64,000 nt of DNA, taken from contig JAPLOI010000034.1 in NCBI GenBank assembly GCA_026400815.1, positions 1 to 64,000 on the forward strand, given 5' to 3'. The position numbers and the translations under genes are program-made. This document shows positions 11,213 through 28,606 of the stretch, piece after piece. The first letter of the stretch is position 1, and each line of letters opens with the position of its first letter. Under the pieces are notes generated by a model. That model saw only the letters and a program-made list of their open reading frames with translations, was not told the origin of the DNA and did not search any database. The DNA comes from Alphaproteobacteria bacterium (GTDB lineage Bacteria; Pseudomonadota; Alphaproteobacteria; Acetobacterales; Acetobacteraceae).

Positions 11213-12475
11213 CTATCCAACGGTATTCCGCGGCACATCCCGGAACGGCTTCTTGGTATCCTCGCTCGGCTCCCGCGGCATCCCCAGCACCCGCTCGGCG
11301 ATGATGTTCCGCTGGATCTCATCCGTCCCCCCGGCAATAGAAACCGCCGGCACCGACAGCAGAATCTCCGCCACCGTCCCGCCGGCCGCCGCCTCCGGCC
11401 CGGCCAGCAACGCCCCTGCCCCGGTCATCTGCGTATGAACCCGCGCCGCCGCCCGCGCCACCACGCTCGCCGCAAGCTTGCCCAGCGACCCCTCCGGCCC
11501 CTGCGGCTTGCCCTGCTCCTTCGCCGCCCGCGCCCGCCGCGCCGTCCACTCGGCACAGCGCGCCATCACCAGCAGCTTGCCCACTTCCTGCCGCACCACG
11601 GGATCATGGATCGCCCCGGTCTCGATCGCCCGCGGCAACACCATATCCACCCGGCCGGCACGGCTGGGGTACCAACGATACGGCTCCAGCGCGACAGCGA
11701 TCTCGTCGCGCTCCTCGCCATAGATCCGCTCCGGCCGGTCGCTGCCCTTCGGCTGCGCCCGCAACCCATCCGCCCCGCGCCGCTCATGCATCAGCGTCGT
11801 GTTCGTCACCGTCCACCCATCGCCCTCGGTGGAAACGATCATCTCCGGCGGCACGATCGCGTCGGTCAGGAACACCTGGTTGAAACTGGCGAACCCGTTC
11901 ATCTGCCGCAGCGGCGAAACCGAAACGCCCGGCTGCTTCATGTCGATGATGAAATACGAAAGCCCGCGATGCTTCGGCGCATCCCAGTTCGTTCGCGCCA
12001 GCAGCAGCCCCCAATGCGCCTTGTGCGCGCTGGTGGTCCACACCTTCTGCCCGTTCACCACCCACTGGTTGCCCTGGAACTCCGCCCGCGTCACCGCGCC
12101 GGCCACGTCGCTCCCGCTGCTCGGCTCGCTGAACAACTGGCACCACGTGTCCTCGCCGGTGAGGATCCGCAGCAGGTACTTCTCCTTCTGCAGATCCGTC
12201 CCGTGCGCCAGGATCGTCGCCGCCGCCAGCGTGCGAATGCCGATCCGCGCCACGCCGATGGCGCCCGCCTGGTCGAACTCCTCCTCGATCACCGGCACCA
12301 TCGCCTCGGGCATCTCCCGCCCGTACCACCGCGTCGGCCAGGTCGGCATGCCCCAGCCGGAATGCGCCAGCCGCGTCCGCCACTCCACCAGCCCCAGCGC
12401 CGGATCCCAGTTCGCCGCCAGCCAGGCCCGAACCTCGGCGCGCACCCCCGCTTCGCTGCCCATCGCCTCGCTCAT
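11213..12475 (-). CDS. Acyl-CoA dehydrogenase (second of a coupled pair)
   Basis: A 420-residue acyl-CoA dehydrogenase. FAD-binding blocks are visible: CQLFSEPSSGSD and WTTSAHKAHW in the middle domain, and GGTDEIQRNIIAERVLG near the C-terminus. A 25-residue polar tail follows. It overlaps the upstream dehydrogenase by four bases (ATGA), so the two are translationally coupled. Such pairs often form hetero-oligomers acting on bulky, steroid-like or aromatic acyl-CoAs; this is inference here. No CoA ligase or thiolase is adjacent in the operon. Confidence 0.9.
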   Translation of the reverse strand: MSEAMGSEAGVRAEVRAWLAANWDPALGLVEWRTRLAHSGWGMPTWPTRWYGREMPEAMVPVIEEEFDQAGAIGVARIGIRTLAAATILAHGTDLQKEKYLLRILTGEDTWCQLFSEPSSGSDVAGAVTRAEFQGNQWVVNGQKVWTTSAHKAHWGLLLARTNWDAPKHRGLSYFIIDMKQPGVSVSPLRQMNGFASFNQVFLTDAIVPPEMIVSTEGDGWTVTNTTLMHERRGADGLRAQPKGSDRPERIYGEERDEIAVALEPYRWYPSRAGRVDMVLPRAIETGAIHDPVVRQEVGKLLVMARCAEWTARRARAAKEQGKPQGPEGSLGKLAASVVARAAARVHTQMTGAGALLAGPEAAAGGTVAEILLSVPAVSIAGGTDEIQRNIIAERVLGMPREPSEDTKKPFRDVPRNTVG

Positions 12476-13590
12476 GGCGTACCCTCCACCATCGCCTGCA
12501 TCATTCGCTCCCGATGCAGCGTCGCATCGCCCAGCATCACCTCGCTCGCCTTCGCGCGCTTGAACCAGAGATGCGTCTCGTTGTCCCAGGTGAACCCGAT
12601 CCCGCCATGGATCTGCACCGCATGGATCGCCGTCTGCAGATACGCCTCCGATGCCGCCGCCTTGGCGATCGAAGCCGCCACCGCCACATCCGCGTCGCCA
12701 TCATCCAGCGCCGCGGCGGCGTAGTAGGCGGCCGACTTCGCCAACTCCACCTCCATCAGCATGTCCGCCTGCTTGTGCTTCATGGATTGGAACCCGGCGA
12801 TCACCTTGCCGAACTGCATCCGCATCTTGGCGTAGGCGAGCGCATCCTCGCGCAGCCGCTCCGCCCCGCCCACCATCTCATTGGCCAGGCCCACCGCCGC
12901 CTCGGTCATCACCCGCGCGAAAGGCTCCGAAGCGCCGCCATCCTCGCCGAGCAGCTCCGCCCGCACGCCGGCAAACGCCAGCCGCGCCAGCTTGCGCGTG
13001 GGATCAATCCCCTGCACCGCCCGGCGCGAAACCGCAGCCCCGTCCACCGTGAACAGCGACAGCCCCGCCTCCGTGCGCCCCAGCACCACGATCAGGTCCG
13101 CCGTATGCCCATCGATCACGAAGCTCTTGTGCCCATCCAGCCGCCAGCCCGCGCCATCGCGCGCCGCCGACAGCGTCGTCCCCTCCGCATCCCAGCGCCC
13201 GGACTCCTCCACCCAGGCCAGCGTGCCGACCACCGCGCCGGAAGCGATCCCCGGCAGCAGCGCCGCCTTCTGCGCCTCCGTTCCCGCCTGCAGGATCGCA
13301 CCGGCGGCCAACACCGCGCTGGCGAAAAACGGCGCGCACAGCAGCACCCGCCCCATCTCCTCCATCACGATGCACTGCTCGGAGAACCCGAACCCCTGCC
13401 CGCCATACGCTTCCGGGATGCGAACCGCCGCCAACCCCATCTCGGCATTCAGCCGCGCCCAGCCCTCGCGCTCCCAGCCGGCCTCGGTCTCCATCAGCCG
13501 CCGCACCTCCTTGGTCGGCGACCGCTCCGCGAGATACCCCCGCAGGCTTTCGCGGAATGCCTCCTGCTCGGCGGAAAAGCTGAACTTCAT
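12472..13590 (-). CDS. Acyl-CoA dehydrogenase (first of a coupled pair)
   Basis: A 372-residue acyl-CoA dehydrogenase starting with the canonical MKFSFSAEQEAFRESL helix. It contains IPEAYGGQGFGFSEQ, a less conserved middle domain (LAWVEESGRWD in place of the usual TE.. FAD motif), and QIHGGIGFTWDNETHLWFKRAK at the C-terminus. The weak middle motif against the strong one in its partner is the pattern expected of a heteromeric pair in which each subunit contributes part of the FAD site. It is divergent from the luciferase-like oxidoreductase gene across about 100 bases. Confidence 0.9.
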   Translation of the reverse strand: MKFSFSAEQEAFRESLRGYLAERSPTKEVRRLMETEAGWEREGWARLNAEMGLAAVRIPEAYGGQGFGFSEQCIVMEEMGRVLLCAPFFASAVLAAGAILQAGTEAQKAALLPGIASGAVVGTLAWVEESGRWDAEGTTLSAARDGAGWRLDGHKSFVIDGHTADLIVVLGRTEAGLSLFTVDGAAVSRRAVQGIDPTRKLARLAFAGVRAELLGEDGGASEPFARVMTEAAVGLANEMVGGAERLREDALAYAKMRMQFGKVIAGFQSMKHKQADMLMEVELAKSAAYYAAAALDDGDADVAVAASIAKAAASEAYLQTAIHAVQIHGGIGFTWDNETHLWFKRAKASEVMLGDATLHRERMMQAMVEGTP

Positions 13591-13689: not shown

Positions 13690-14559
13690 ATGAAGATCGG
13701 CATCTTCTCCACCTTCATGTCCCCGCTCGCCACGCCGGCGATGATCCGCGACTTCGGCCGCCGCGCCGAGGACACCGGCCTCGATTCCATCTGGATGGGC
13801 GAACACGTGGTGCTGTTCGACCGCAACACCTTCCCCTACCCCTCCAGCAAGGACGGCCGCATCCCGGTGCCGGAGGGCGGCGGCATGCTCGATGTCGTCG
13901 CCACCTTCGGCTTCCTCGCCGCCGCCACCAGCACCATCCGCCTCGGCACCGGCGTCGCGCTCGTTCCCCAGCGCAACCCGATGTACACCGCCAAGGAAAT
14001 GTGCACGCTCGATTGGCTCACCGATGGCCGCATCGATTTCGGCATCGGCGTCGGCTGGAACAAGGAAGAAGTGGAAGCCTGCGGCTACAGCTGGGAAGAC
14101 CGCGGCGCCCGCTGCGATGAGTTCCTGGAAGTGATGCGCCGCCTCTGGACCGAACCCGTGGTCGATTTCCACGGCAAATGGGTCAACATCGAAACCTGCC
14201 GCCTGGACCCGAAGCCGATCCAGAAGCCGCACGTGCCCATCATCGTCGGCGGCTACGCCGGTGCCGCCCTGCGCCGCGCCGTGCGCTTCGGTTCCGGCTG
14301 GTACGGCTTCAGCCGCGACCCCGCCGGCACGAAGGAGATGATCGCCCGCCTCGACGCCGCCTTCGCCAAGGAGGGCAAGAAGCGCCCGCCGGAATTCCAG
14401 ATCATCATGACCCCACCACCCGGCATGCTGATCGACGCGATGCGCGAATACGAGGAAGTCGGCGTGCATCGCCTGGTGCTGCACCTCGGCAACCAGCGCC
14501 CCGAACGCACCCAGGCCCGCCTGGCCGAAATCGCCCCGCTGGTCCGCGCCTACGCCTGA
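13690..14559 (+). CDS. Luciferase-like (LLM class) F420/FMN-dependent oxidoreductase
   Basis: A 289-residue TIM-barrel oxidoreductase of the luciferase-like monooxygenase superfamily. Visible blocks: GIFSTFMSPLATP at the N-terminus, SIWMGEHVV, TSTIRLGTGVALVPQRNP, DFGIGVGWNKEE, and the C-terminal VHRLVLHLGNQ. AGGAGG lies 9 bases upstream of the ATG. The family reduces or oxygenates small molecules with FMNH2 or F420H2; cofactor and substrate are not determined. It diverges from the acyl-CoA dehydrogenase pair and converges on the ligase gene, overlapping its end by ten bases. Confidence 0.87.
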   Translation: MKIGIFSTFMSPLATPAMIRDFGRRAEDTGLDSIWMGEHVVLFDRNTFPYPSSKDGRIPVPEGGGMLDVVATFGFLAAATSTIRLGTGVALVPQRNPMYTAKEMCTLDWLTDGRIDFGIGVGWNKEEVEACGYSWEDRGARCDEFLEVMRRLWTEPVVDFHGKWVNIETCRLDPKPIQKPHVPIIVGGYAGAALRRAVRFGSGWYGFSRDPAGTKEMIARLDAAFAKEGKKRPPEFQIIMTPPPGMLIDAMREYEEVGVHRLVLHLGNQRPERTQARLAEIAPLVRAYA

Positions 14560-16142
14560 GAGGCCAGTTGGGCCAACCGCCGCAGCGCCGCCAGGTCATG
14601 CTTGGCGCTCGGCAGCAGCGGCAGCGCCGGCAGCACATGCAGCCGGCGCGGCCGCATCGCGGTCGGAACGCTGTCGCGCAGCCGGGCGATCAGCAACGGC
14701 TGCACCTCGGCCCAGTCCCGCTCCGGCACAGCGACAAAGCCGTGCAGCGACCCATCGTCCAGCTGCACCAGGGCGGCATCGCGCACCCCGTCCTCCGCCC
14801 GCAACACCGCCTCGATCTCCGCCGGCTCCAGCCGCACCCCGTTCACCTTCATCTGCCGATCGGCCCGCCCGGCGAAATACAGCAACCCATCCGCCGCGCG
14901 CCGCAGCACATCCCCGGTGCGGAACACCCGCGCCCCGGGCAGCGCGGGATCGGGCAGCATCCGCCCCGGCACCACGCGGCCCTCCTGCAACTCGCCCAGC
15001 GCCAGCTGCCGCCCGCGCAGCACCATGTGCCCCGCCTCGCCCTCGGCCACCGGCCGGTCCTCTTCGTCCAGCAGCGCGTATTCCACCCCCGGCAGCATCC
15101 GCCCCACGCTGAGCGTACCACCCTGGGCCACGCGCTCGATCGGCAGCGACCAGTCGCTCACCACCATCGCCTCGGTGGAGGCATAGGAATGGCTGATGCC
15201 GCACCCCGCCGGCAGCAGCGCCCGCCACGCGGCCAGATCATCTGCCGGCAGACCGCTGCCGCCGATTCGCAGCAGCCTCGGCCGCGCCACCGCCTGCGGC
15301 ATCGCCGCCAGCCCGCGCAACGCGCGCAGCATCGCCGTCGGCCCGGCCAGGATCGTCGCCCCCTCGCGCGCCGCTAGCCGCACCACGCCGCCAGGCCCCT
15401 CGGCCGCGAAGCTCACCACCAGCTGGGTGCCGCCGCACAGCACGCCTGCGATATGCGCCGCCACGCAGGACCCGTCGGAGATGGTCGTCGGGATCAAATA
15501 GCGATCCGCCTCCGTCATGCCCTGCCGCTCGATCATCATCGAAGCGCGCGCCATCACGTTGAACGAAGACAGCACGATCCCCTTCGGTCGCCCCGTGCTG
15601 CCGGAGGTGTAATGGATCATGCTCGGCGCATCGGGATCATGCGGCACCGCCGCCACATCGCCATCCCCGGCCAGGCAGTCCGACAGCGCAATCGCCACCG
15701 CCCCCGCCCCCGCCGGCCACGGCACCTGCAAGGCCAGCGCATCATCGAACAGCACCGCCGCCGGTGCCGCATCCTCCAGCATCAACCGCAACCGCTCGGG
15801 CGGGTCGGCGGGATTGAGCACCACGCACACGCGCCCCGCACTGGCGCACCCCAAAAGGGCCGCCACGCCCTGGGGCGTCTGCGGCAGGAACGCCGCCACC
15901 CGCGCCCCCGCCGGCACACGCCGCTGCACCGCAGCCGCCACGCGGCGCACGATGCCAATGAAATCGGGGCGGGAGAGCCGGCCAGCCGTGCCCGCCATCG
16001 CCGCATGCCCCGCCGGATGCCGGCACGCCTCCTCCAGGCACGCCAGCAGCGGCCGCAACGCCAGCGCCAGCCGCGAAGCCGGCACCGCCCCCTCCTGGCG
16101 CCACACATCTTCCCGCGGCAACGGCGCGTCCCCCATTGCCAT
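14550..16142 (-). CDS. AMP-dependent acyl/aminoacyl ligase (adenylation enzyme)
   Basis: A 530-residue ANL-superfamily ligase. The P-loop TSGSTGRPKG is at about 179-188, the adenylate-binding SHSYASTEA in the middle, the hinge FRTGDVLRR with GRADRQMKVNGVRLEP, and a C-terminal catalytic-type lysine in LLPSAKHDL. It activates a carboxylic acid as an adenylate and could load it on the carrier protein encoded just upstream, whose stop codon overlaps this start (TGATG). It is the last gene of a five-gene minus-strand run. Closest in style to stand-alone NRPS adenylation domains or fatty-acyl-AMP ligases; the substrate is unknown. Confidence 0.85.
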   Translation of the reverse strand: MAMGDAPLPREDVWRQEGAVPASRLALALRPLLACLEEACRHPAGHAAMAGTAGRLSRPDFIGIVRRVAAAVQRRVPAGARVAAFLPQTPQGVAALLGCASAGRVCVVLNPADPPERLRLMLEDAAPAAVLFDDALALQVPWPAGAGAVAIALSDCLAGDGDVAAVPHDPDAPSMIHYTSGSTGRPKGIVLSSFNVMARASMMIERQGMTEADRYLIPTTISDGSCVAAHIAGVLCGGTQLVVSFAAEGPGGVVRLAAREGATILAGPTAMLRALRGLAAMPQAVARPRLLRIGGSGLPADDLAAWRALLPAGCGISHSYASTEAMVVSDWSLPIERVAQGGTLSVGRMLPGVEYALLDEEDRPVAEGEAGHMVLRGRQLALGELQEGRVVPGRMLPDPALPGARVFRTGDVLRRAADGLLYFAGRADRQMKVNGVRLEPAEIEAVLRAEDGVRDAALVQLDDGSLHGFVAVPERDWAEVQPLLIARLRDSVPTAMRPRRLHVLPALPLLPSAKHDLAALRRLAQLASQA

Positions 16143-16396
16143 CAGCCCTCGCGCGCGGTGACCAGCAGCCGCACGATATCGCCCACGGTCTCCAATTGGC
16201 CCAGCCCACCGGTATCCACCACCACGCCCAGCGTCTCCTCCGCCAGCGCCACCGTCTCCAGCAGCCGCAGGCTGTCCAGCCCGTCAACGTCGTAAAGCAG
16301 CGTCTCCATCGCCACCTCGGGCTGCGGCCGGTTCGTCACCCGCGCCACGATCCCAACCACCACGCCCAGCACCGCCTGGGGATCAAGCCTGCTCAT
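16142..16396 (-). CDS. Free-standing acyl/peptidyl carrier protein
   Basis: An 84-residue carrier protein. The phosphopantetheine serine is in GLDSLRLLE (Ser42), with helix II (SLRLLETVALAEETLGVVVD) typical of ACP/PCP folds. It needs 4'-phosphopantetheine from a transferase encoded elsewhere. ATG at 16396 overlaps the upstream stop (ATGA) and its own stop overlaps the ligase start, so all three genes are coupled. This is not the fatty-acid synthesis ACP context (no fab genes nearby), which points to a dedicated pathway. Confidence 0.85.
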   Translation of the reverse strand: MSRLDPQAVLGVVVGIVARVTNRPQPEVAMETLLYDVDGLDSLRLLETVALAEETLGVVVDTGGLGQLETVGDIVRLLVTAREG

Positions 16397-17463
16397 GCCG
16401 CGCGCTCCCGGCCGGCATCCACCATCGCGGCGGTGGCGGCACAGATCCGCCGCCATGTGCCGTAGGAGATCGTCGCCCGGCTGAACTGGTCGATATGGCC
16501 GAGATAGAATCCGTCGCCGAGGTCATCCACCCGTCCCACCTGCTCCGGCGTCTCGGCCCGCACCACGCAGAGCAGCGGCGCGGGGCCGATGCCGCGCAGC
16601 GCGGCATGCACCGCCACGAAGCTGTCCGGGTGCGGCGCCTCGGCGGAGGACTTGAACACAAAGATGCGCTGCCCCGCCTCGATATCGGCCAGCAGCTTGC
16701 GCCGCAGCAGCCGCAGCCGCGCACAGCCCGCCAGGCGCATCTCCTCCTCCTGCGCTGGGTCGTCCAGCTTCCCGCTGGCCCAGGTATGCTGGCTGAAATA
16801 CCGCGGGTCGCGCAGCTTGTAGTCGGGCGGATCGCCGCGGAACTCCAGCAGGGTATGCGCGGGATCGCCCAGCCCTTCGAACCGCCGGCACAGCCCCAGC
16901 ACCAGCCGCGCCGCATCGGTGCCAACCCAGCGCAGCAGGCTCGCCGGCTCGATGCCTGCGCCGCGCTGCACCAGGCCGAATTCGCAATTGTCGCCGAGGT
17001 TCTCGAACCGCGCGAACAGCGCCGCCGCGGCATCGTCACCGGCGGGATAGCGCGGCAATGTCGTTGCCATCACGCACAGCCCGGCCGCGCCGGCGAACGC
17101 GGCGAACAGGCTGGCCGGCAGCACCGCGGCACCATTGGTCCAGCGTGCGCCGGTGTGCTCGATATCGTGCAGCCCGTCGTGGAGATCGGGATGGTCGAGT
17201 GGCAACGGCACCTCCCGTCCTGCCTGCGCCACGGCAAGGCCGACCAGCCGAATGCCCAGCAGCCGGTCATCCGCCGCGAAACCCAGCGCGCTGGGCCGGC
17301 CGCTGCGCGAAACCAGCTGCATATCGCTGCAGGGCAGGGAGAGGTGGAACACGAACGCGCCGTCGTCACGCAGCTGCGGATCCACCCGCCGCCCCTGCAC
17401 GATCAGATGCAGATCGGGATCGACCAAGGTGCGCTCCACCGCCGGGAGATCAGCTTCGGGCAT
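16393..17463 (-). CDS. Conserved protein with LGDNCEFG motif, unknown function
   Basis: A 356-residue protein. The N-terminal ~115 residues form a beta-rich segment (DPDLHLIVQGRRVDP, CSDMQLVSRSGRPSALGF, RLLGIRLVGLAV). The larger C-terminal part begins with FENLGDNCEFGLVQRG (Cys160), then LLRWVGTD, and closes with GHIDQFSRATISYGTWRRIC. The LGxxCE.G signature resembles DUF1796-type proteins annotated as putative cysteine peptidases, and similar proteins accompany bacterial surface-polysaccharide genes. I do not recognise an established function. It is coupled to the carrier protein (ATGA), so it may act on a carrier-bound or secreted product; that is inference. Confidence 0.6.
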   Translation of the reverse strand: MPEADLPAVERTLVDPDLHLIVQGRRVDPQLRDDGAFVFHLSLPCSDMQLVSRSGRPSALGFAADDRLLGIRLVGLAVAQAGREVPLPLDHPDLHDGLHDIEHTGARWTNGAAVLPASLFAAFAGAAGLCVMATTLPRYPAGDDAAAALFARFENLGDNCEFGLVQRGAGIEPASLLRWVGTDAARLVLGLCRRFEGLGDPAHTLLEFRGDPPDYKLRDPRYFSQHTWASGKLDDPAQEEEMRLAGCARLRLLRRKLLADIEAGQRIFVFKSSAEAPHPDSFVAVHAALRGIGPAPLLCVVRAETPEQVGRVDDLGDGFYLGHIDQFSRATISYGTWRRICAATAAMVDAGRERAA

Positions 17464-17581
17464 GGTGGGCCTCCGGTGAATCGCGTCGCGTGGCGCGAGC
17501 CCGTGTAACGCGGCCCGAACGGCAGGGGATCAGCGGGGGATAGGGCGGCACGATCAGCATCTCCTTCTCGGGCGCGCGGCA

Positions 17582-19222
17582 TCAGGGCCTGGCATTCGGC
17601 CGCGCTCCCATATCCCCTGGCCCGCGCGCAGCGCCAACCACCGGGGAAAGCCCATCCAACCGCGCCTCGTACACCACCGGGGCGCGGGCCGCCCAGATGT
17701 TCAAGGGGTGGTAGAGCGGCACCAGCGGCACGTCGTCCGCCAGCACCTGCGCCGCCTCGCGCTGCGCGCGAGCCCGCACCACGGGATCGAAGGTGGTCAG
17801 CCCCTCCTCCAGGATCCGGTCCAGCGCCGGGTTGGCGTAGCGGCCGTAATTGCTGACGCCCAGGCTGCGGGCGGGATCGTTGCTGGCCAGCAGGTCCCGG
17901 GTGACAGACAGCGTGTCCAGCGTGCTGGCGCAGCAGGCGAACAGCAGGGCGGCGAACTCGCCCCGCCCGGCGCGGCGCGCCAGCATGTTCCAGGGCATCG
18001 TCTTCACCTGCGCCGCCACACCGATGCGCGACCACATCTGCGCCAGCGCCTCGGCCACCTGGGTGATGCCGGCGTAACGGTCGGAGGGCCCATGCAGCGT
18101 CAGCCGGAAGCCCTCGCCGAACCCGGCCTCGGCCAGCAGCGCGCGGGCGGCCGCCAGGTCCTGCGCCGGGGCACCGAGCCCGTCCACGAATTGCGGGTTG
18201 CCGGTAGGGGCGATCTGTCCGGCGGGGATGCCGGCCCCGGCCAGCAATCGCTCGGTGAGCGCCGGGCGGGCCACGGCGCGCGACAGCGCCTGGCGCACCC
18301 GCCGGTCGCGCAGCGGATTGGCCGCCAGCGGCCCACCGCCAGGGCCGGCCAGGAAGGCCCCGCCATCCTCGCGCGCCACATGGGGAATGACATAAACCGC
18401 GCTTGCCGCCGACGCCCGCGCCAGGGTGAAATCCCGCCTTCCCGCCAGCATCTGCGCATCCGCCGCCGAGACCTTCTCGATCACATCGATGTCGCCGGCC
18501 AGCAGGGCGGCGGCGCGCACCGCATCGCGCGGGATGAAGCGCAGCGCCGCCGATGCCCATGGCTGCGCCCCGCCCCACCAGCCAGCGTGGCGAGCGAGTT
18601 CCAGCGACGCCTCCGGCACATAGCCAACTGCGCGGAACGGGCCGGTGCCGATCGCCTCGCGCAGGCTGTTGAACGCCTCCGGCTCCGTGACGGTGGCCTC
18701 ACTCCGGCGCAGGATCGGCACCTTGGCGAGATCGGCGATCAAGGTAGGCGCCGGACCCACCGTGTACAGGCGCAGCGCGTGCGGGCCGCGCACCTCCACC
18801 CGGGTGATCGGCTGCAACTTGCTGGCAAGGCCGCGCAGGCTGGTCTTGAGGCTGGAGGCCCGGGCGAAGCTGGCCACCACATCCTCTGCCGTGAAGGGCG
18901 TGCCGTCGTGGAACACCACCCCAGGGCGCAACGCGATGTCCCAGGCAAAACCCTCGGCGACACTCCAGCCCGTGGCCAGGGACGGGGTGGCGGCGCCCGC
19001 AGGGTCGATCCGCACCAGCGCCTCGTAGATGTTGGCATGCACGGTGCTGTCGCTGTTGGCGGCATAGGCGTGCGGGTCCAGCCCCGAGGGCGCAACGGAG
19101 AGGCCCACCACCAGCCGCCCCGCCGCAACACGCCCGTCCGCCGCTGGCCGGGGCTGGGCGGTGGCCGGCCCGGCGCTCACCAGCAGGCCCGCCAGCAGCG
19201 CCGCCAGGCAATGCCGCTTCAC
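17582..19222 (-). CDS. Peptide/nickel-type ABC transporter substrate-binding protein
   Basis: A 546-residue exported solute-binding protein of the SBP_bac_5 (DppA/OppA) family. A signal peptide occupies about residues 1-22 (CLAALLAGLLVSAGPATA-Q). Family blocks: VGLSVAPSGLDPHAYA, ANIYEALVRID, DGTPFTAEDVVASFAR, GTGPFRAVGY, and DRRVRQALSRAV. No permease or ATPase genes are next to it. Its ATG overlaps the stop of the upstream ligase (ATGA). The partner transporter must be elsewhere, or the protein acts as a periplasmic carrier for this cluster's product. Confidence 0.88.
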   Translation of the reverse strand: MKRHCLAALLAGLLVSAGPATAQPRPAADGRVAAGRLVVGLSVAPSGLDPHAYAANSDSTVHANIYEALVRIDPAGAATPSLATGWSVAEGFAWDIALRPGVVFHDGTPFTAEDVVASFARASSLKTSLRGLASKLQPITRVEVRGPHALRLYTVGPAPTLIADLAKVPILRRSEATVTEPEAFNSLREAIGTGPFRAVGYVPEASLELARHAGWWGGAQPWASAALRFIPRDAVRAAALLAGDIDVIEKVSAADAQMLAGRRDFTLARASAASAVYVIPHVAREDGGAFLAGPGGGPLAANPLRDRRVRQALSRAVARPALTERLLAGAGIPAGQIAPTGNPQFVDGLGAPAQDLAAARALLAEAGFGEGFRLTLHGPSDRYAGITQVAEALAQMWSRIGVAAQVKTMPWNMLARRAGRGEFAALLFACCASTLDTLSVTRDLLASNDPARSLGVSNYGRYANPALDRILEEGLTTFDPVVRARAQREAAQVLADDVPLVPLYHPLNIWAARAPVVYEARLDGLSPVVGAARGPGDMGARPNARP

Positions 19223-20841
19223 GGTCCCACCAGGGCGGCCAGGGCCGCATCATCGCGCTTGCCGGCGCCGGTCAGCGGCACCGCGTCGATCCTGTGCAGG
19301 CTGGCCGGGATCATCGCCGCGGGCAGCGTCCCGTGCAGCGCCGCACGCACGCCGCGCAGCAGCGCCGTGTCGGTCATCGCCGCCGCATCGGGTGCCGGCA
19401 CCACGAACCCCGCCAGGCGCACCTCGCCCGCCACCTGCCGCGCCACCACGGCGGCATCGGCAATGCCGGGCAGGCCGCGCAAGGCCATCTCGATCGTGGC
19501 CGGCTCCACACGCTGGCCGGCGATCTTCACCATCCGGTCGCGCCGGCCCAGCACCACCAGCACGCCATCCGGCGCAAGTCGCCCGATATCCCCGGTGCGG
19601 TAGACGCGCTTGCCGGGATGGCCCGGATCGGTCGGGAAGCGTGCCGCCACCATCCGTCCGCCCACCCAGTCACCCGCCGCGGCGAAGGGGGTGCGCACCA
19701 CCAGCTCGCCCGCCTCGCCGGGCGCCACGGGGTGGCCCGCCTCATCCAGGATCGCCACCTCCACCCCCTGATTGATGTAGCCGGAGCCCACGCGCACGGG
19801 GTCGTGCCGGTCCTCCTCCGGCACGAACCAGCCCGCCACCCGCGCCGCTTCGCTCAGGCTCAGCCCGTAGCTCACGCGGCACCCCGGTGGCAGGGCGGCG
19901 CGGATCAGGGCGAGATCGGCCTGCAGCAGCGCATCCCCGCCCAGCATCACCAGCCGCAGCCCCGCGAAGGCGGCACGCGCGGCAGGCAGCCCGGCCAAAA
20001 CCGTCAGCAGCCGCGGCGTGGCATGCAGCACGGTGGCCCCGGCCTGCCGCACCTGTTCCAACACGCCGCCGAGCCCCAGCGCCTGCGGATCGGGCAGCAC
20101 CAGCCCGGCCCCGGCCATCAGGGCATAGAGCCGATGCGACACCGCGCCGGCGGTGGCGGGCGGGCCGATCACCGCCACGCGGTCCTGCGGGCCAAGCCGA
20201 AGCTGGCAGATGCGCTGGGCATAATTGGCCAGGATGGTCTGCTGGATCTGCACCACCGCCTTGGGCGCGCCGGTGCTGCCGGAGGTGGAGACGATGAACA
20301 CCGGCGCGGCGGGATCGAGCAGCACCGGGTCCGCCGGCGGCACTGCGGCGGCAGCGGCGGGATCGAGCACCGGCACCGCGCCATCGAGCCGCGCGGCCAG
20401 TGCCGGCGTGGCGACCACGCCCACGAGGCCCGCGGCGGCGATGCCGGCAGACAGCATGGCACCGGGCTGATGCGGGTCGAGCAGCATGCACGGCCGCCCG
20501 GCCGCCAGGCAGCCGAACATGGCAACGAGATAGCCGGTATCGTTGGGCAGCAGCACGCCCACGGCGCCCTCCGGCCAATCCGCCGCGCGCAGCGCCGCGC
20601 CCAGCCGGCAGGCCGAGGCGTACAGCGCGGCGAAGTCCAGGCTATGGGCGCCATCGGCGATCGCGATCGCCCGTGGCTGGCGCGCGGCATGGCCGGCGAG
20701 ATGGGCCAGGATGGCGCGCCCGGCCCAGCCGGCATCGATCGCCGGTTCCGCCAGCCCCGCCGGCGGCGCCTGGTCGGCCGGGCGCGGCCCGGCGGTGAAC
20801 CAGGCCGCATCGGGGATGGGCGAAAGCAGTTGGCCGATCAC
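19219..20841 (-). CDS. AMP-dependent ligase (adenylation enzyme), first gene of the cluster
   Basis: A 540-residue ANL-superfamily enzyme with STSGSTGAPK (185-194), YGLSLSEAARVAGW, the hinge YRTGDIGRLAP with GRRDRMVKIAGQRVEP, and the C-terminal catalytic-type lysine in LTGAGKRDD. The GTG at 20841 is the first plausible start; the frame stays open further upstream but crosses an A/T-rich, promoter-like stretch. It differs clearly from the ligase at 14550, so the two probably activate different acids. It leads a minus-strand run into the binding protein, the LGDNCEFG protein, the carrier and the second ligase. Confidence 0.83.
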   Translation of the reverse strand: MIGQLLSPIPDAAWFTAGPRPADQAPPAGLAEPAIDAGWAGRAILAHLAGHAARQPRAIAIADGAHSLDFAALYASACRLGAALRAADWPEGAVGVLLPNDTGYLVAMFGCLAAGRPCMLLDPHQPGAMLSAGIAAAGLVGVVATPALAARLDGAVPVLDPAAAAAVPPADPVLLDPAAPVFIVSTSGSTGAPKAVVQIQQTILANYAQRICQLRLGPQDRVAVIGPPATAGAVSHRLYALMAGAGLVLPDPQALGLGGVLEQVRQAGATVLHATPRLLTVLAGLPAARAAFAGLRLVMLGGDALLQADLALIRAALPPGCRVSYGLSLSEAARVAGWFVPEEDRHDPVRVGSGYINQGVEVAILDEAGHPVAPGEAGELVVRTPFAAAGDWVGGRMVAARFPTDPGHPGKRVYRTGDIGRLAPDGVLVVLGRRDRMVKIAGQRVEPATIEMALRGLPGIADAAVVARQVAGEVRLAGFVVPAPDAAAMTDTALLRGVRAALHGTLPAAMIPASLHRIDAVPLTGAGKRDDAALAALVGP

Positions 20842-21046
20842 GGAGCACCCGTGATCGGGGAGAGATTCAGCATGCGGGCCCTTGCGCAATTGGCCGCTTG
20901 TCTGCGGCGGGCGGAGGGTGACCCTCAATCGAATAACAATGCAACCGATCGCAGCAAATTGTAACGATTCGCCCTGGCACACAGCGCGGCACCGCGCGCG
21001 CCAGGCCGCAAGAGGGGAACCGGGAGCGGGAAAGGGGCGGAAGGCG

Positions 21047-21275
21047 GCTCTGGATGGCGCCCGCTGCGCGGAACATGTCGTCGACCTGCAGCATGGATCC
21101 TGAGCCCCGTGGCCAGATCCGACAAGAACCTGCTGTCCCGGCCACGGTCCCCCGCCGTGGCAACAGCCGCCCCGACGGGGCCCGGCAGCCCGATTTCCCG
21201 CAACGCCGACTTACCCTGCGATGCCGGGGTGACGGGTGGAACAAGCGGCGGGGATGCCGGGGGTGGGGCGCGGCA
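21047..21275 (-). pseudogene. Decayed copy of the phage-type gene at 35225-35782
   Basis: Read on the minus strand, one frame gives LREIGLPGPVGAAVATAG and RDSRFLSDLATGL, and another gives VDDMFRAAGAIQS. Together they match the C-terminal third of the 185-residue protein at 35225-35782 (ALREAGLLGAVEAAVAAAGG, DSEFLSDLAEALGL, IDQMFRHADAIQS). Upstream bases (gatgccgg.ggtgggg) also match. At least one frameshift is present and the N-terminal two thirds are missing. Confidence 0.6.
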
Positions 21276-21283
21276 TGAACCGG

Positions 21284-21679
21284 CTACTCATCCCTCTCCA
21301 GCCGCTCAATGTCGGCGTCCGACCATCCGAAATGGTGCGTGATCTCCTGGATCAGCACGGTGCGGATCAGGCGGAACAGGTCCTCGCCGGTCTCGATCCA
21401 CTCCAGCAGGATGGGCCCGCGGTAGAGGGTGATGGTGTCGTTCTCCATCGGTGCGTCGAGAACGCTCTTCTGCGTCCGCGCAGCGCGACGGTAGAGCCCG
21501 GTCAGCGCCCAGGGGCTCTCGAAGCCGAGTTCCTGCGCCGTCTTCTCGTCCGCCACCTCCTCCACCACGATGCTGGCGCCCCGGACCAGGATCCGCAGCT
21601 TCTCCGGGATGGCGGGGAAGGCGTGCCCAGCCAGGTCCACGATATCATCAAGGGTGGGAGGGTGATGGAAGCGGTACAT
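21284..21679 (-). CDS. Zincin-like metallopeptidase-family protein, copy A (QExxH)
   Basis: A 131-residue protein of the small zincin-like family (PF06262-type): YRFHHPPTLDDIVDLAGHAF, a central beta segment, TLYRGPILLEW, and the metal motif near the C-terminus. The family normally shows HExxHHFG; here it reads QEITHHFG, so the first zinc-binding His is a Gln (residue 111). A second copy at 44290 differs at about 29 of 131 positions and has the same change. Activity as a peptidase is therefore doubtful. Flanked by a decayed phage-type gene and a tRNA-like remnant. Confidence 0.75.
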   Translation of the reverse strand: MYRFHHPPTLDDIVDLAGHAFPAIPEKLRILVRGASIVVEEVADEKTAQELGFESPWALTGLYRRAARTQKSVLDAPMENDTITLYRGPILLEWIETGEDLFRLIRTVLIQEITHHFGWSDADIERLERDE

Positions 21680-22077
21680 GGGGCATCCATCTATCAGGAG
21701 ACCGCCGCGTCAAGTGGCAGAGAGACGGCCACCTCTCTGGGCGACGTTGGGGATGAGGGAGCCCTCGGTCGCGGCGCCGATACGCGGACGCGCGGGCTGG
21801 CCGGGCCGGGACGTGATGGGCCGGGACGATGGTCCACGGTGCCTGGAGCGCAGGCAATGGTTCCGATCTCCACAAGCTGGCGCGATCAGGCCCTGCGGAC
21901 GCTTCACGCCAAGTACCAGGTGGAGGGGCTGAGGTTCGCGCACTTGGCGATCAAGCGGCACGGGTCGGCGGGGAGTGCGACGCGCAACGGAGTTGGCGGA
22001 GGGAGTGCACCCGGATTCGAACCTTCGCTGCTCGGGCGGAGCGGTCATCGCGCGCCTCCCCACACCAACCTACATCA
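21680..22077. other. Non-coding stretch between zincin copy A and the Calx-beta gene
   Basis: About 400 bases without a convincing gene. The part up to about 21880 resembles the region upstream of zincin copy B (ccgcgtcaag, ctggggatgaggg, and an agcgc.. block). Beyond it lies a tRNA-Ser-like 3' remnant near 21994. No promoter was recognised. Confidence 0.5.
21994..22030 (-). pseudogene. tRNA-Ser 3'-end remnant
   Basis: The minus strand reads GGTTCGAATCC, a short insert, then CTCCCTCCGCCA. This resembles the T-arm and acceptor end of the tRNA-Ser at 45240 (GGTTCGAATCC, CTCCCCTTCCGCCA). Similarity continues past the CCA (AACTCC..TGCGCGTC against AATTCC..TGCGCGTC). No anticodon arm can be folded upstream, so this is not a working tRNA. 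Confidence 0.5.
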
Positions 22078-24190
22078 TCACAACGTAAACCAACTGGCAT
22101 CCACTGGCCCTGCCGCCTTAACCAAGATCGTCAAGTCGGCCACCGTGTCATTGTTGATGTTGCCCTGGATGAGCAGAGTCCCTCCGCCCTGGTCCTGCCA
22201 GCGGAGCTGGCCGGGTGTACCGTTGAATGCTGCCGAGCCAATGAAGCTGAACGGGTCGTCGGCCAAGGTGCCGGCAACCGCGTCAATGGCCGTGAGGTCT
22301 ATCACCTCGCCCGCCACACGGCTGAAATCCTGCAGGGTGGTGGCGTTGCTGGCCGCGGGCCCGATCGCGGTGGGCAGGAAGCGGAACACGTCCAGCCCGG
22401 CCTTGGCCACCACCGAGTCCAGGCCACCGCCGAGCAGGAACACGTCTGGAGCGTCGGTGCCGGTGAGGGTCTGGTTCGCGGAGGTGCTGGCGAAGTCGTC
22501 GTTGACGATCACGCCGGTGGCTGATGCCGTGGTGACGGACACGCCAGCCTGCGCGTTGGAGAGTGCGACGGTGAAGCTCTCGTTCAGCTCCGCGACCGTA
22601 TCCGCGGTGACATTCACCGTGACCGTCTGAATCGCCTGCCCGGCGGAAAAGCTAACGCGGCCGGACTGGAACTGGCCGGTGGCGAAATCCGCCCCGGTGG
22701 CGGGCGTGGTTCCTGTGGCGCCGCCGCCGCTGACCGCCCAGTCGGCCGCCGCGACCCCGGAGAGATCGCCGCTGCGGGTGACGGTGAAGGTGAAGGGGGT
22801 TGTGCCGCTGGCGCCCTCGGCCTTCTGCGCCGAGGCCCTTGCGATCGCCAGCGTGCCGGTGCCGGCGGGATCGTCGTTGCGGATCGTGCCGGTGGCCGAC
22901 GCCGTGCTGATCGACACGCCGGTCGGCACGCCGGAGAGGGAGACAGTGAAGGTCTCATCCGCTTCCACCGCCGTCTCTCCGGCCACCGTGAGCGTGACCA
23001 CCTGGCTGGCCTTGGCCGGGTGCGAAGGTGACGCTGCCGAAGGGTAGGACCCCGCCGGTGAAGTCCGCCGCGGTGGCGGTGCCGGCGGTGGCGGCCCAGT
23101 TAGCGCTGGCGGGGCCTGCAATGTTGCCGGCGCGGGTGACGACGAAGGTGAAGGCGGTGCTGCCGCTGGCGCCCTCGCCGCGATCGGCCTGCAGCCCAGC
23201 GATGGAGAGCACGCCGGAGGGCGGGAAGTCGTCGTTGACGATCACGCCGGTGGCGGTGGGCGTGCCGATGGTGACGCCCAACTGCGGGGCCGCGAGGGTG
23301 ACGGTGAAGCTGTCGTTCAGCTCGATCGTGCTGTCGGCGGCAACGTTGACGGTGACCGTCGTCAGCCCCTGGCCGGCGGCGAAGTTGACGCGGCCGCTGG
23401 GCAGGGTGCCGCCAGCGAAATCCGCCGCATTGGCCGAGACAGTGCTGGGAACACCGCCGCCGGTGACGGCCCAGTCGGCACTGGCGGTGCCGGTGAGGTC
23501 GCCAGCGCGGGTGACGGTGAAGGTGAAGGCGGTGGTGCCGCTTTGGCCCTCGGCCTTCTGCGCGCTGGAGCGCGCGATCGCCAGCGTGCCGGTGCCGGGA
23601 GTGTCGTCGTTCCAGATCGTCGCGGTGGCGGTGGTCGTCCCCAGGGTGACCCCAGCCGGCGTGCCGGAGAGGGTGACCAAGAAGCTCTCGTTCAGCTCCA
23701 CCGCGGCATCGCCGGAGACATTCACCGTGACCAGCTTGCTGGTCTCGCCCACGGCGAAGGTGACGGCGCCCGAGGGCAGCGTGCCGCCGAAATCGGACGC
23801 AGAAGCGCCGACAGTGCCGGGGATGCCGCCGCCGGTGACGACCCAGTTGGCCCAGGCTGGGCCCCTGGTGTCCCTGCTGCGGGTGATCGAGAAGGTGAAG
23901 GGCGTAGGGCCCGCATTGCCCTCGTCGCGGGAGGCCTGGAGCCTGGTGATCGACAAGGTGCCGGTCGGTGGCACATCGTCGTTCTGGATCGTGCCGGTGG
24001 CTGAGGCGATACCGATGGAGGCGCCAGACGAGGGGTTGGACAGCGTGACCGCGAAGCCCTCATCGGCCTCAAAGGCCAGATCGCCGGCCATGGGGATGGT
24101 GATGGTGCGGGTGTTTTGGCCGGCGGCGAAGCTGACGGTGCAGGTGGGAAACACGCTGCCTGCGAAGTCCGCCGCGTTGTCCGACATCGC
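22078..24190 (-). pseudogene. Calx-beta repeat surface protein, 5'-truncated and frameshifted
   Basis: The remains of a large secreted adhesin-like protein. It holds one partial and four full Calx-beta repeats of about 110 residues (ending in TGTIQNDD, TIWNDD, TGVIVNDD, TGTIRNDD, TGVIVNDD) and a C-terminal serralysin-like domain (DVFLLGGGLDSVV, LQDFSRVAGEVIDLTAIDA, LLIQGNINNDTVADLTI) of the type used for type I secretion. The reading frame is broken near 23010 by one extra base in ggccaaggccagcc. Without it APGQ would run directly into ASQVVTLTVAG. The 5' end stops mid-repeat at an IS3 fragment, so signal and start are lost. Calx-beta repeats bind calcium in known proteins. Confidence 0.8.
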
Positions 24191-24493: not shown

Positions 24494-27400
24494 TCAGAAG
24501 GCCAGCGAGGCCCGCAACATGCCGGTATGGGCGTTGTAGTTGCTGCGCAGGTCGCCCTGGTATTCGGCCCGCACCGTCAGCCTGTCGCTGTACAGCAGGG
24601 TGCCAGCCAGGTTCAGCCTTGCACCATCGGGCGCCAGCCGCGACGTGGTGCTGAAGAAGGTGGCTCCCGCCAGCTGCCCGGTGGCTGCGATGGGCCCGAC
24701 GATGTAGTCGTGGGTCCAGGACAGCCGCATTTCCGGCAGTATCGTGCCCAGTGGCGTCTCCCATCGGCCGGAGACGCGGGCACCCACCTCATGCACCAGC
24801 GCATCGACGCGGGAGCGATTGACCTGCAGATTGGCCAGGCCGGCGCCCGTTTCGCCATAGCCCTGGGTATCCGCGCGCAGATACTGCAGCGTGGCCATCG
24901 GCGTCAGCGTCACGCTGTCGGTCAGGTGCAGGTCATGCCCAAGCCCGCCCTTCAGCTGAAACTGGTAGCCACTGAACTGCGACCGCGCCGTGGCGCCGAG
25001 GAAGCCGATGTGGCGCCGCTGGATGAAGCTGTTGCTGCCGCCACCCGCCTGGCCGAACACGAAGCTGCCCGGGCGGAACTGCCAGGTGCCATAGGCGGTG
25101 AGCGAGTAGTTGGTCAGCAAGGTGGTGCTGCCGGTGGTCACGCCGCCGGTATTGGTGCGGCCCTGCATCATACTGGCGCCGATGCCGACAACGGCCGTGG
25201 GCGACAGGTTGTAGTCCAGGCCGATCATCATGCCGCCGCTGCGGCTGCTGTAGCCGTCCACCGTGGCGGTGGTGCTGCGGTTGGAGTAGCCGCCCATCAC
25301 CCGCAACCACATGCGCTTCTGGCTGCCGCCCGAGCCGGCCGCTATGCCGCCGCCGCCGCGGCCATCTTGCGCCATCAGGCCGATCTGGTGCTGTTCCACC
25401 ACCTGGGTGGTCAATGCGGCGCTCACATTCAGTGCCACGGCGCTCGCCGAGGTCTGCACCGGCGCGGTCTGGCGCACCGCGTCCTGCTGGCGCTTGCCCT
25501 CCGGCAGGTCGTCGATGTGGGTCAGCACCTGCTGCTGGAACGCGCCGCTATTGGCCGCCAGCTGGTCCAGCGTGCTGCCCATGTTGCCGGGCGTGGCACC
25601 GGAGGCACGGCCAATGGCGGTGTAGTCGCTGCTGCGGATGTTCAGCACCAGGTTGTAGTGGCCATCGATCATGGGCGTGGTGAAGAAGCCGCGATACCCC
25701 GAGAGACTGAGCTGCACGCCGGCATAGCTGGTGCCCGCGGGCGTGGCGCTGTCCACCAGCGTGTAGGTGCCGTTCCGGGCCAGCTTGAAGCCGTTGAGCG
25801 GCTGGACGCGCACGGCACCGTTGGTCATGTCCACCGTGCCGGTCACATTGAGCCGGCCCTGGCTGGCGGCATCGATGCCGAGGATGAGCAGCGAGCCGTT
25901 GTTCTGCACCAGGTTGCCGCTGATCGCTACGGGGGTATTGGCCTGCAGCGTGCCGCCCAGCGTGACCGTGCCGGCACCATCCTTCACCGCGATGTTGCTT
26001 GCCAGCAGCTGGTTGCCGGCGCCGAAGGTCAGGTTGCCGTCGGTCATCACGACACTGCCGCCCATGATGGTGCCGAAACCAGAGCCGCTGCCGCCCTGGA
26101 TGGTCACATCCTGGTTGCCCACCAGCACATTGCCGTTGATGACTCCGCTATTGGTGATGGCACCGATGGTGGCGCCGGTACCGCTGCTGTTCAGCGCATA
26201 AAGGCCGCCCGTGATGCTGCCGCTGTTCACCAGCGGGCCCATCACCCCCATGTTGCGGATGCCGGTCTCCCCGCCGCGGATGGCGCCCGCGTTGATCAGC
26301 GTGCCAATGGTGCCAATGTTGCCGAACCAATTATCGTTTCGGACGCCCACCTTGTCACCGAAGATCAAGCCAGAGCTGGTATTCTCCAGAACCCCGATCG
26401 TTCCACGGTTGGTTACGCCGTGAGAACCGTTCCATGGATTGTAAAGCGAATCGGTCGTAATGGTCCCGCTATTGGTCAGCGTCCCGATGACACCATCATT
26501 GTCTACACCCGCCCAAGACTGCCCATGGATGCGCCCCGAGTTGTCGATTCGGTCGATGGAACCGCCACTATAAATACCGGTATAGCCATGAATGAGATTG
26601 GAGTTGATAATTGACCCGATGCTACCGTCATTTGAAATAGCATAATCTGAATCGGAGCTAATAATTAACCCTGTGTTATTTATAAATCCTATTGTCCCGT
26701 CGCTATTTATGCCGTAGTCGCCGCTTATGGTCCCGCTGTTGAACAAGGCACCAATGTAACCACCGGAGGAGGCGAGGATGCCCCTTCTCTCACCGTGGAT
26801 CAGCCCGCTATTGGTCAGCGTGCCGATGATGCTCGCGTTCCGGATACCATACGAGATGCCAGTGATGGTGCCGCTGTTGCTCAGCTGGCCGATCGACCCA
26901 TCATTGTCGATACCGGCTGTCTTGCCCTGGATCAGCCCGGAGCTGGTATTGGTCAGGACGCCGATGCTGCCGGCGTTGTAAACGCCGAAATAGCCGTATT
27001 TAGCAACGGCAATGGTCCCGCTATTGGTGAGGGTGCCGATCGACCCGCCGTTAGAAACGCCAGCGTAGGATTGCGCATAAATACCCCCGGAATTCGACAG
27101 TACCCCTATCGTGCCGTAGTTGGAAACGCCGCTATAGCCGTAGATCGTCCCGCTGTTGGACAGCGTGTTGATGGCACCGTTATTGGATATGGCGTAGGCG
27201 GAGCTGCTACTGATGATGGTTCCACTGTTGAAGAGGACACCGATGGTTCCGGCGTTTTGCAGGGCCTCGCCTTCACCAAGGATTACGCCAGTGTTGTTCA
27301 GTGTCCCAATGAAGCCTTCGCTCTGAATGCCAGTATCTCCAGTGATCGTGCCGGAATTGCTGAGCACGCCGATGGAACCCGGCAGGCCCATAAAAATGCC

Positions 27401-28606
27401 AATGCTGGCACTGATATCGCCAGCATTGTTCAGCACACCAATGGAACCGTTATTGTAGACACCGGCGAACGAGTACGCGCTCCCAGATGTGCGGGCGACA
27501 ATGAAACCGCCGGCCAGGTTGGTCAGCGTATCCATTTGGCCGAGATTCATCACGCCCACGGAGTACAAGGCCGCGCTGGCGTGTGGCAGCACCAGGCCCG
27601 TGGTGGCGGTGGCGACCAGCCCGCCACCATTGGTCAGCGTGCCGATGCTGCCATCATTATAGGCGCCATACGCACCACCCAGAATGGTGCCCGAATTGGT
27701 CAACGCACCGATGGTGCCGGTGCCGACGATGGCAATGGAATAGCTTTGCAGGATGGTACCGGCAAAGCCCGTGCCCGAGAGATTGGCGATGCCGGCCACC
27801 TCACCGGAGATGGTGCCGGTGGCGCCGTTGGTCAGGGCGCCCACCGCGCCGACATTGCCTACACCGACAAGGCCGCCTATGATCGTGTTAGCATTGATCA
27901 GGCTGCCCAAGGTCGCGCCTGCGATATCGTAACCGACCTGCACGCCGAACGCAGTGCCGAAGATCACACCGCCGGCGTTGTTCACCAATGTGCCCATGGC
28001 GCCGTCGACAAAGACGCCCCCATACCCGGCCGAGACGAGCACGCCGGAGTTGGCCAGGCTACCGATGCTGCCGGCGACAGCGACAGCAACACCGGCCCGA
28101 TAGCCGCTGATCGTGCCGCTGGTCTGATTGGTCATCGCGCCGATAGTGCCGAGAGTACCGACCATCACGCCTTCGTAGGTGCCGCTGATCTGGCCGGAAT
28201 TGTCGAACGTGCCAATGCTGCCGGTGGAAAAGAGGCCGCTCCATGATCCCCTGATGATGCCGGTGTTCAACACCGTGCCGATGCTCCGGCTATTGTCGAT
28301 GGCGTGGTAGATGGTGCCGGCGACGGTGCCGGCGTTCGACAACGTGCCGAGGGTGGCGTCGCTGTTGAAGATGCCGTTGGGTCCGTTGCTGATCGCGCCC
28401 GACCCGGTCACCGTAAAGCTGGTGAAGGAAGCGTTCGGCGTGATGGGACCGGTGCAGACGGTGGAGATGACGTTGCTGGTGCAGGGGGTTGCGGCCTGCG
28501 CCCCCGCGGTGACGGCGATGGCATAGAGCGAGACGCCCGCCAGCAGAGTACGGCGCAGCAGGGCCTCGGCCTTTGGAGACTGCGCGGTCGTCGGGTGCTG
28601 CGGCAT
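24494..28606 (-). CDS. Large autotransporter with degenerate IGxLxNSGxI repeats
   Basis: A 1370-residue type V secreted protein. The ATG at 28606 has a strong ribosome-binding site (GGAGGTGATACCC). An extended N-terminus precedes a signal segment (RRTLLAGVSLYAIAVTAGAQAA). The passenger, about residues 60-1000, consists of several dozen variants of a roughly 20-residue unit such as SIGTLTNSGTI with G..GI.N.G spacing, expected to form a right-handed beta helix. It is followed by an autotransporter stalk (FKLARNGTYTLVD) and a C-terminal beta-barrel of about 280 residues ending in LRASLAF with the terminal aromatic residue. Parts of the repeat region are A/T-richer than the neighbourhood, hinting at transfer. 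Likely role: adhesion or aggregation. Confidence 0.9.
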   Translation of the reverse strand: MPQHPTTAQSPKAEALLRRTLLAGVSLYAIAVTAGAQAATPCTSNVISTVCTGPITPNASFTSFTVTGSGAISNGPNGIFNSDATLGTLSNAGTVAGTIYHAIDNSRSIGTVLNTGIIRGSWSGLFSTGSIGTFDNSGQISGTYEGVMVGTLGTIGAMTNQTSGTISGYRAGVAVAVAGSIGSLANSGVLVSAGYGGVFVDGAMGTLVNNAGGVIFGTAFGVQVGYDIAGATLGSLINANTIIGGLVGVGNVGAVGALTNGATGTISGEVAGIANLSGTGFAGTILQSYSIAIVGTGTIGALTNSGTILGGAYGAYNDGSIGTLTNGGGLVATATTGLVLPHASAALYSVGVMNLGQMDTLTNLAGGFIVARTSGSAYSFAGVYNNGSIGVLNNAGDISASIGIFMGLPGSIGVLSNSGTITGDTGIQSEGFIGTLNNTGVILGEGEALQNAGTIGVLFNSGTIISSSSAYAISNNGAINTLSNSGTIYGYSGVSNYGTIGVLSNSGGIYAQSYAGVSNGGSIGTLTNSGTIAVAKYGYFGVYNAGSIGVLTNTSSGLIQGKTAGIDNDGSIGQLSNSGTITGISYGIRNASIIGTLTNSGLIHGERRGILASSGGYIGALFNSGTISGDYGINSDGTIGFINNTGLIISSDSDYAISNDGSIGSIINSNLIHGYTGIYSGGSIDRIDNSGRIHGQSWAGVDNDGVIGTLTNSGTITTDSLYNPWNGSHGVTNRGTIGVLENTSSGLIFGDKVGVRNDNWFGNIGTIGTLINAGAIRGGETGIRNMGVMGPLVNSGSITGGLYALNSSGTGATIGAITNSGVINGNVLVGNQDVTIQGGSGSGFGTIMGGSVVMTDGNLTFGAGNQLLASNIAVKDGAGTVTLGGTLQANTPVAISGNLVQNNGSLLILGIDAASQGRLNVTGTVDMTNGAVRVQPLNGFKLARNGTYTLVDSATPAGTSYAGVQLSLSGYRGFFTTPMIDGHYNLVLNIRSSDYTAIGRASGATPGNMGSTLDQLAANSGAFQQQVLTHIDDLPEGKRQQDAVRQTAPVQTSASAVALNVSAALTTQVVEQHQIGLMAQDGRGGGGIAAGSGGSQKRMWLRVMGGYSNRSTTATVDGYSSRSGGMMIGLDYNLSPTAVVGIGASMMQGRTNTGGVTTGSTTLLTNYSLTAYGTWQFRPGSFVFGQAGGGSNSFIQRRHIGFLGATARSQFSGYQFQLKGGLGHDLHLTDSVTLTPMATLQYLRADTQGYGETGAGLANLQVNRSRVDALVHEVGARVSGRWETPLGTILPEMRLSWTHDYIVGPIAATGQLAGATFFSTTSRLAPDGARLNLAGTLLYSDRLTVRAEYQGDLRSNYNAHTGMLRASLAF

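Follow-up and report, generated by a model that had tools for sequence, protein, structure and literature searches.

Five minus-strand genes, designated E, D, C, B and A in that order, occupy positions 14550-20841 of the window (the whole stretch of 64,000 nucleotides that was analysed), which belongs to a 5.1 Mb genome (G000) with relatives named Acetobacteraceae or Rhodospirillales. The features of this locus and its flank are as follows.

19219..20841, minus strand: E, AMP-forming ligase of the NRPS-adenylation type, 540 aa (Pfam AMP-binding)
17582..19222, minus strand: D, SBP_bac_5 solute-binding protein with an N-terminal signal-like segment (Pfam, 211 bits; cut-off 32.4)
17464..17581, minus strand: D-C gap of 118 bases, the upstream edge of the C-B allele swap relative to genome G001
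16393..17463, minus strand: C, LGDNCEFG protein, 356 aa, with an N-terminal beta domain and a predicted papain-like, DUF1796-related domain
17044..17421, minus strand: N-terminal beta domain of C, residues about 15-140
16396..17031, minus strand: papain-like candidate catalytic domain of C, residues about 145-356
16984-16986 and 16786-16788, minus strand: codons of the candidate dyad of C, Cys160 and His226, respectively
16142..16396, minus strand: B, stand-alone carrier protein, 84 aa, phosphopantetheine Ser in GLDSL
14550..16142, minus strand: A, AMP-forming ligase of the NRPS-adenylation type, 530 aa
13690..14559, plus strand: LLM, luciferase-like monooxygenase, convergent with A, the two tails sharing 10 bases
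11213..13590, minus strand: acyl-CoA dehydrogenase pair, a separable neighbour

A first-pass annotation had placed five minus-strand open reading frames here, and all are present with the coordinates and gene calls that it gave. Pfam and the gene list also agree with its account of two AMP ligases, a carrier with a DSL serine (here within GLDSL), and a binding protein lacking permeases: A and E match AMP-binding, D matches SBP_bac_5, and B is a member of the PP-binding family PF00550 (30.5 bits against a cut-off of 20.8). No permease genes were found in the operon or among its immediate neighbours, and neither dltB nor dltD is among the cluster genes. The C/B junction (ATGA, the B start overlapping the C stop), the B/A junction (TGATG) and the 118-base gap were reported correctly, while the E/D overlap is GTGA instead of the ATGA given earlier, with the GTG start codon of D lying inside the E stop. 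The one larger gap stands, but five genes have four junctions, so that three rather than four of them are tight. No sigma-70-like promoter was found at 14000-22000, the sigma-70 model being one that says little for this organism.

The same annotation proposed a small dedicated pathway, suggested looking for the five-gene order in relatives, and named a failure of the genes to co-occur as the result that would count against it. The order E-D-C-B-A is in fact kept in at least 3 related genomes, namely G001, G007 (93-99% identity to the window) and G003 (contig C173, about 60% identity), and this co-occurrence supports a dedicated pathway. The operon is partial, cut at contig ends, in G004 and at locus L039. 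At L044 the order is E-D-C-A-B, and since D and C overlap there, D is a genuine member of the unit. Locus L038 has C-B-A, and the more distant L054 and L087 have C and B only, with A adjoining on the opposite strand. A close E was found in 3 of 200 family genomes, and a strong C match (E<=1e-30, domain-only relatives included) in 19 of the same 200. The full five-gene set is uncommon; the tight functional unit is A-B-C, to which E and D, as part of the operon, are rarer additions whose roles we infer. A place for B in ordinary fatty-acid synthesis was rejected, because its partner is always C and the cluster, as noted earlier, holds no fab gene. Elsewhere, an E ligase 92% identical to that of the window (L153; G429 contig C356, 308-1921) lies in a genome placed in another genus, reflecting either a recent transfer or a misbinned contig.

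The flanks were also compared. LLM is convergent with A in G000, G001, G004, G007 and G003, and with a fused gene in G028. The acyl-CoA dehydrogenase pair lies directly downstream of a second C-B pair in G003 and G006, but it was not accepted as a core member of the cluster because G002 and G008 carry it with no close C. At L027 (8723-12401) and L029 (4471-8157), the second C-B pair directly upstream of the dehydrogenase pair sits between xanthine-dehydrogenase-like gene sets, with no ligase adjoining. A first-look search of the window's own genome returned 132 candidate SBP_bac_5 relatives of D, 8 of them at E<=1e-60; judged by these matches, the genome has a large expansion of binding proteins. 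Farther along the window, a pair of similar Zincin_1 metallopeptidase genes is separated by about 23 kb (21284-21679 and 44290-44685). A 1370-aa autotransporter (PF03797) with a repetitive passenger (24494-28606) has Calx-beta-repeat ORFs next to it (22078-24187), with an apparent start of an IS3-type transposase near 24351. Positions 30241-33494 hold the gene of a TPR-sulfotransferase protein (698 aa) and, after it, another gene that overlaps it by 4 bases, and 37141-38490 encodes a serine recombinase with Resolvase and Recombinase domains, in a region that is possibly a mobile-element remnant.

Ligases A and E share 36% identity. Each retains the C-terminal Lys and has the NRPS adenylation model as its best-scoring match. 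Their scores against the DltA model (99 and 103 bits, respectively) are so far below its cut-off of 559.85 that a D-alanylation system was rejected. In adenylation domains Asp235 (GrsA numbering) binds the alpha-amino group of the substrate. Following the earlier suggestion that the adenylation pockets be checked, we read position 235 in the orthologues of both ligases and in fused paralogues described below, and found Asp in the fused paralogues only: the residue is Gly in A (G, A or S in its orthologues) and A, S or T in E orthologues. As neither ligase keeps the Asp that binds the alpha-amino group, their substrates are likely to be non-alpha-amino acids. Known alpha-hydroxy-acid adenylation domains carry Gly or Ala at this position, and one Phe-activating domain carries Val (PMC11253843). 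Alpha-amino acid substrates for A and E were considered and found unsupported given the small residue at 235, and an Asp one column earlier in A was set aside because its conservation is lost in more distant A orthologues. Several genomes of the genus also have, at a conserved position, a second A-like ligase (43-49%).

Protein C has no family match in Pfam, NCBIfam or PHROGs. Neither PF08795 (DUF1796; curated cut-off 23 bits) nor BtrH_N (PF14399) matched it at E<=1, and on the latter ground C was rejected as a member of the BtrH family; a PycTM match below cut-off was ignored. Aligned with hhalign, 74 sequences of the C domain matched nine DUF1796 sequences with 85.6% probability (E 5.6e-6, 184 columns), placing Cys160 and His226 on the Cys and His of DUF1796 with a Trp in register as well; a reversed and ten shuffled controls all remained below 1%, and the probability with only three DUF1796 sequences was 42.5%. 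Alignments of the C-terminal domain show G157, C160, E161, G163, Q166, H226 and W337 to be near-invariant. C160 is kept in 73 of 74 sequences, a count that is partly circular because the search pattern required the Cys, and H226, which lies outside that pattern, in 71 of 74.

AlphaFold2 modelled the whole of C with a pLDDT of 89 and its C-terminal domain with a pLDDT of 94.7 and a pTM of 0.90; in the predicted model Cys160 opens a helix and His226 closes a strand, as in papain-like folds. The conserved Gln of C (Q166) follows the Cys, whereas papain has its Gln before the Cys. Against the viral fold library BFVD, whose names are themselves predictions, C gave 8 matches at E<1e-3 (best E 3.7e-6, TM 0.60), 7 of them to giant-virus papain-like cysteine peptidases and the eighth to a protein annotated as a glycosyltransferase. 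A PDB sequence search returned nothing, and a PDB fold search gave no match below E=0.001; the best informative entry was 2g6t (E 0.006, probability 0.97), which we take to be linked to DUF1919. Assignment of C to DUF1919 was rejected for lack of similarity (0.1% by hhalign), and fold matches to PtuA were discarded as long-helix matches with a TM of about 0.2 or lower. Taken together, these comparisons indicate that C is a remote relative of DUF1796 with a probable papain-like fold, and that Cys160 and His226 form a candidate catalytic dyad.

The residue pattern could also be read as structural, in that C would be a carbohydrate-binding or structural partner rather than an enzyme for acyl-B, with Cys, Glu and His keeping the fold or binding a metal. 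Residues E161, G163 and Q166 are conserved equally with C160, and the N-terminal beta domain recurs toward the C terminus of a Hint-domain protein and of other large proteins. We nevertheless regard this reading as improbable, since the Cys at a helix start and the His at a strand end are predicted to lie as in papain and both align with the Cys and His of DUF1796. Of the roles earlier proposed for Cys160 (acceptor, transferase or peptidase), a transferase (or a thioesterase) is favored over an acceptor, because Cys160 is conserved together with its counterpart His226 in a domain that is papain-like and related to DUF1796.

At five loci (L026, L053, L055/L033, L062/L035 and L076/L031) a single polypeptide contains A, carrier and C, and in G001 the same fusion gene is split (L036/L083). 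C stands at the C terminus of the fusions, a position normally taken in NRPSs by a thioesterase. The L026 fusion (1469 aa; contig C52, 10812-15221) is in the window's own genome, near group-1 glycosyltransferase genes and an ABC transporter, and like L053 it starts with a condensation domain; hence the earlier observation that no condensation gene is present applies to the cluster but not to the genome. The four fusions that were sampled group in a single clade (100/99), suggestive of one fusion event as opposed to several. Fused paralogues keep Asp at the equivalent of position 235, and because L026 has Asp235, the substrate of this paralogous system is probably an alpha-amino acid.

C and B have also changed together, in two sister genomes. 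Compared with G001, E and D are 94-95% identical and A is 92% identical, whereas C and B are only 57% and 62% identical, respectively. The comparison with G004, in which E and D are cut, gave similar values (A 92%, C 57%, B 64%). A 200-base profile against G001 runs mostly at 88-98% on both flanks and at 61-78% inside, with sharp edges at the D/C gap and the B/A junction; in the comparison with G007, the similarity of C and B equals or exceeds that of the flanks. These alignments are most simply explained by replacement of C-B as one cassette, as a matched carrier–enzyme pair would predict, and the joint replacement offers a natural experiment on carrier–transferase matching.

We further asked which genes accompany C in other genomes, scanning those of 84,980 species. 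The 80 loci obtained are mostly from Acetobacteraceae and Rhodospirillales MAGs, with a few from other hosts, e.g. Nitrospirillum, Methylosinus and Reyranella. All 16 full-length (N+C-type) C proteins examined (15 plus L038) either are encoded next to a carrier gene or are fused to a carrier domain. For the other C-domain genes, a carrier lay within 3 genes in 23/64, compared to 38/433 genes away from C (Fisher 8e-8), and FkbH was present in 13/64 compared to 11/433 (Fisher 7e-7), values that are indicative because the loci are partly dependent. The identity of FkbH was checked for two (TIGR01686, 309 and 305 bits; cut-off 147). Gene orders include FkbH-ACP-C (L045, L063), C-FkbH-ACP (L070), C-ACP-ligase (L047) and C-ACP with an opposite-strand ligase (L107), and FkbH-ACP pairs adjoin LGxNCEFG proteins at L045, L050, L052, L063, L065, L066, L070, L071, L105 and L114. 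These relatives near FkbH (glyceryl-ACP) and carrier genes are in glycosyltransferase neighbourhoods, one FkbH-ACP operon contains a GT2/GT9 protein, and C-domains are found fused to GT61, GSCFA or TPR domains; glyceryl decoration of a glycan is a possible function of the FkbH-ACP loci. As judged from gene neighbourhoods, the C-domain is tied to carriers with three distinct modes of loading, and its context is often that of glycans. That context surrounds only the relatives of C, the cluster itself containing no acceptor or glycan gene, and the surface or signalling product proposed earlier is putative.

These associations bear on whether C is instead a peptidase or amidase that acts on a peptide or glycopeptide, with A and B supplying a separate acyl group. 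The NCBI name of the related family is 'putative cysteine peptidase' and the viral fold matches are named alike, but such names are unverified predictions. Three observations argue against a peptidase, to which we give little credence: A, carrier and C can be joined in a single chain, B is replaced along with C, and even widely differing relatives of C have carrier genes next to them.

Gene content, operon-like layout, conservation, A-B-C fusion, C-B exchange and the relationship to DUF1796 can be taken as established at the level of sequence, and the families involved suggest that A loads B and that C attacks acyl-B through Cys160. With moderate confidence, we favor a thioester relay of A, B and C in which C is a papain-like acyltransferase and E and D contribute added steps. 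In this relay, A would adenylate a carboxylic acid, probably a non-alpha-amino one, and load it onto B; Cys160 of C, activated by His226, would take the acyl group from B; and C would pass it on, the most likely acceptor being a hydroxyl or amine on a glycan or small metabolite that the N-terminal beta domain may hold or orient. E would activate a second acid and deliver it to B or some other carrier, and D would capture a precursor or product in the periplasm; it counts against the relay that this genome is very rich in binding proteins of the D type. We know of no activity for any DUF1796 relative. BtrH, a papain-superfamily ACP:aminoglycoside acyltransferase (PMC10318531), provides a precedent for C as a transferase.

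Hydrolysis of acyl-B to a free acid is the other outcome of attack by Cys160, and C would then be a thioesterase serving release after tailoring on B, or editing. Activating an acid and then hydrolysing it without tailoring would be futile, which argues for transfer; a tailoring step on B would remove this objection. C is terminal in the NRPS-like fusions, A and one fusion each have a candidate tailoring enzyme (the flavin monooxygenase) as a neighbour, and in G003 and G006 the genes immediately after C-B encode acyl-CoA dehydrogenases. However, the dehydrogenase pair may not belong, given its presence in G002 and G008, and the FkbH-ACP-C and ligase-ACP-C sets have no evident tailoring gene, so that hydrolysis there would be futile. 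Moreover, C is large, and its beta or TPR domain suggests an acceptor. We therefore consider a thioesterase unlikely, and retain acyl transfer as the preferred function of C.

A domain that recurs across many alphaproteobacteria and has no Pfam or NCBIfam model thereby acquires a testable role, acyl transfer from carriers. If correct, this role would also offer a first biochemical way into DUF1796, whose sole annotation is that of a putative peptidase, and the set of NRPS domains would gain a papain-like one for release or transfer. More broadly, and with rather less confidence than in the relay itself, we tentatively suggest that LGxNCEFG proteins are a new class of carrier-dependent, papain-like acyltransferases that work with free AMP ligases, FkbH or NRPS loading (replacing the thioesterase), decorate glycans or metabolites with a variety of acids, and are exchanged between strains with their carriers as a cassette. 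In the literature searched, from which most subscription journals were absent, DUF1796 is not mentioned, and neither this gene composition nor a C-type transferase with its partners is described, in keeping with the first-pass statement that no named system of this composition was known. Systems built of a ligase, a carrier and a transferase are a known kind; what the searched literature does not describe is the candidate transferase, along with the variety of partners that it has.

Several known systems share part of this arrangement. DltABCD likewise combines a stand-alone adenylation enzyme with a small carrier, and A and E match DltA models and structures, but they do so far below the DltA cut-off, DltB and DltD are absent, and position 235 is not Asp. 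ABC importer binding proteins share the SBP_bac_5 domain of D, which has no dedicated permease genes alongside. DUF1796 (PF08795, putative papain-like cysteine peptidases) resembles C over the full-domain profile, with Cys, His and Trp in register, and in the kind of predicted fold, and it occurs in glycan loci on Priestia and Terribacillus plasmids; in contrast, C is missed by the Pfam model and has an extra beta domain, and no carrier gene is annotated in the plasmid loci seen. In FkbH-ACP glyceryl-thioester systems, relatives of C lie beside FkbH and ACP as C lies beside A and B, whereas the window cluster uses AMP ligases. NRPSs of the C-A-T-TE type are matched by the own-genome paralogue, a condensation-A-carrier-C chain with C in the place of the TE, but C is predicted to be papain-like where a TE is an alpha/beta-hydrolase, and the cluster proteins are separate polypeptides. 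In the butirosin pathway BtrJ is a stand-alone ligase and BtrI a stand-alone acyl carrier protein. C differs from BtrH in giving no BtrH_N match at E<=1, the ligase here is of the NRPS-adenylation type, E and D are added, and no aminoglycoside genes were recognised near the window cluster; nevertheless, BtrJ-BtrI-BtrH and A-B-C are alike in that a separate ligase loads a separate carrier, from which a papain-superfamily enzyme moves, or in the case of C would move, the acyl group to an acceptor.
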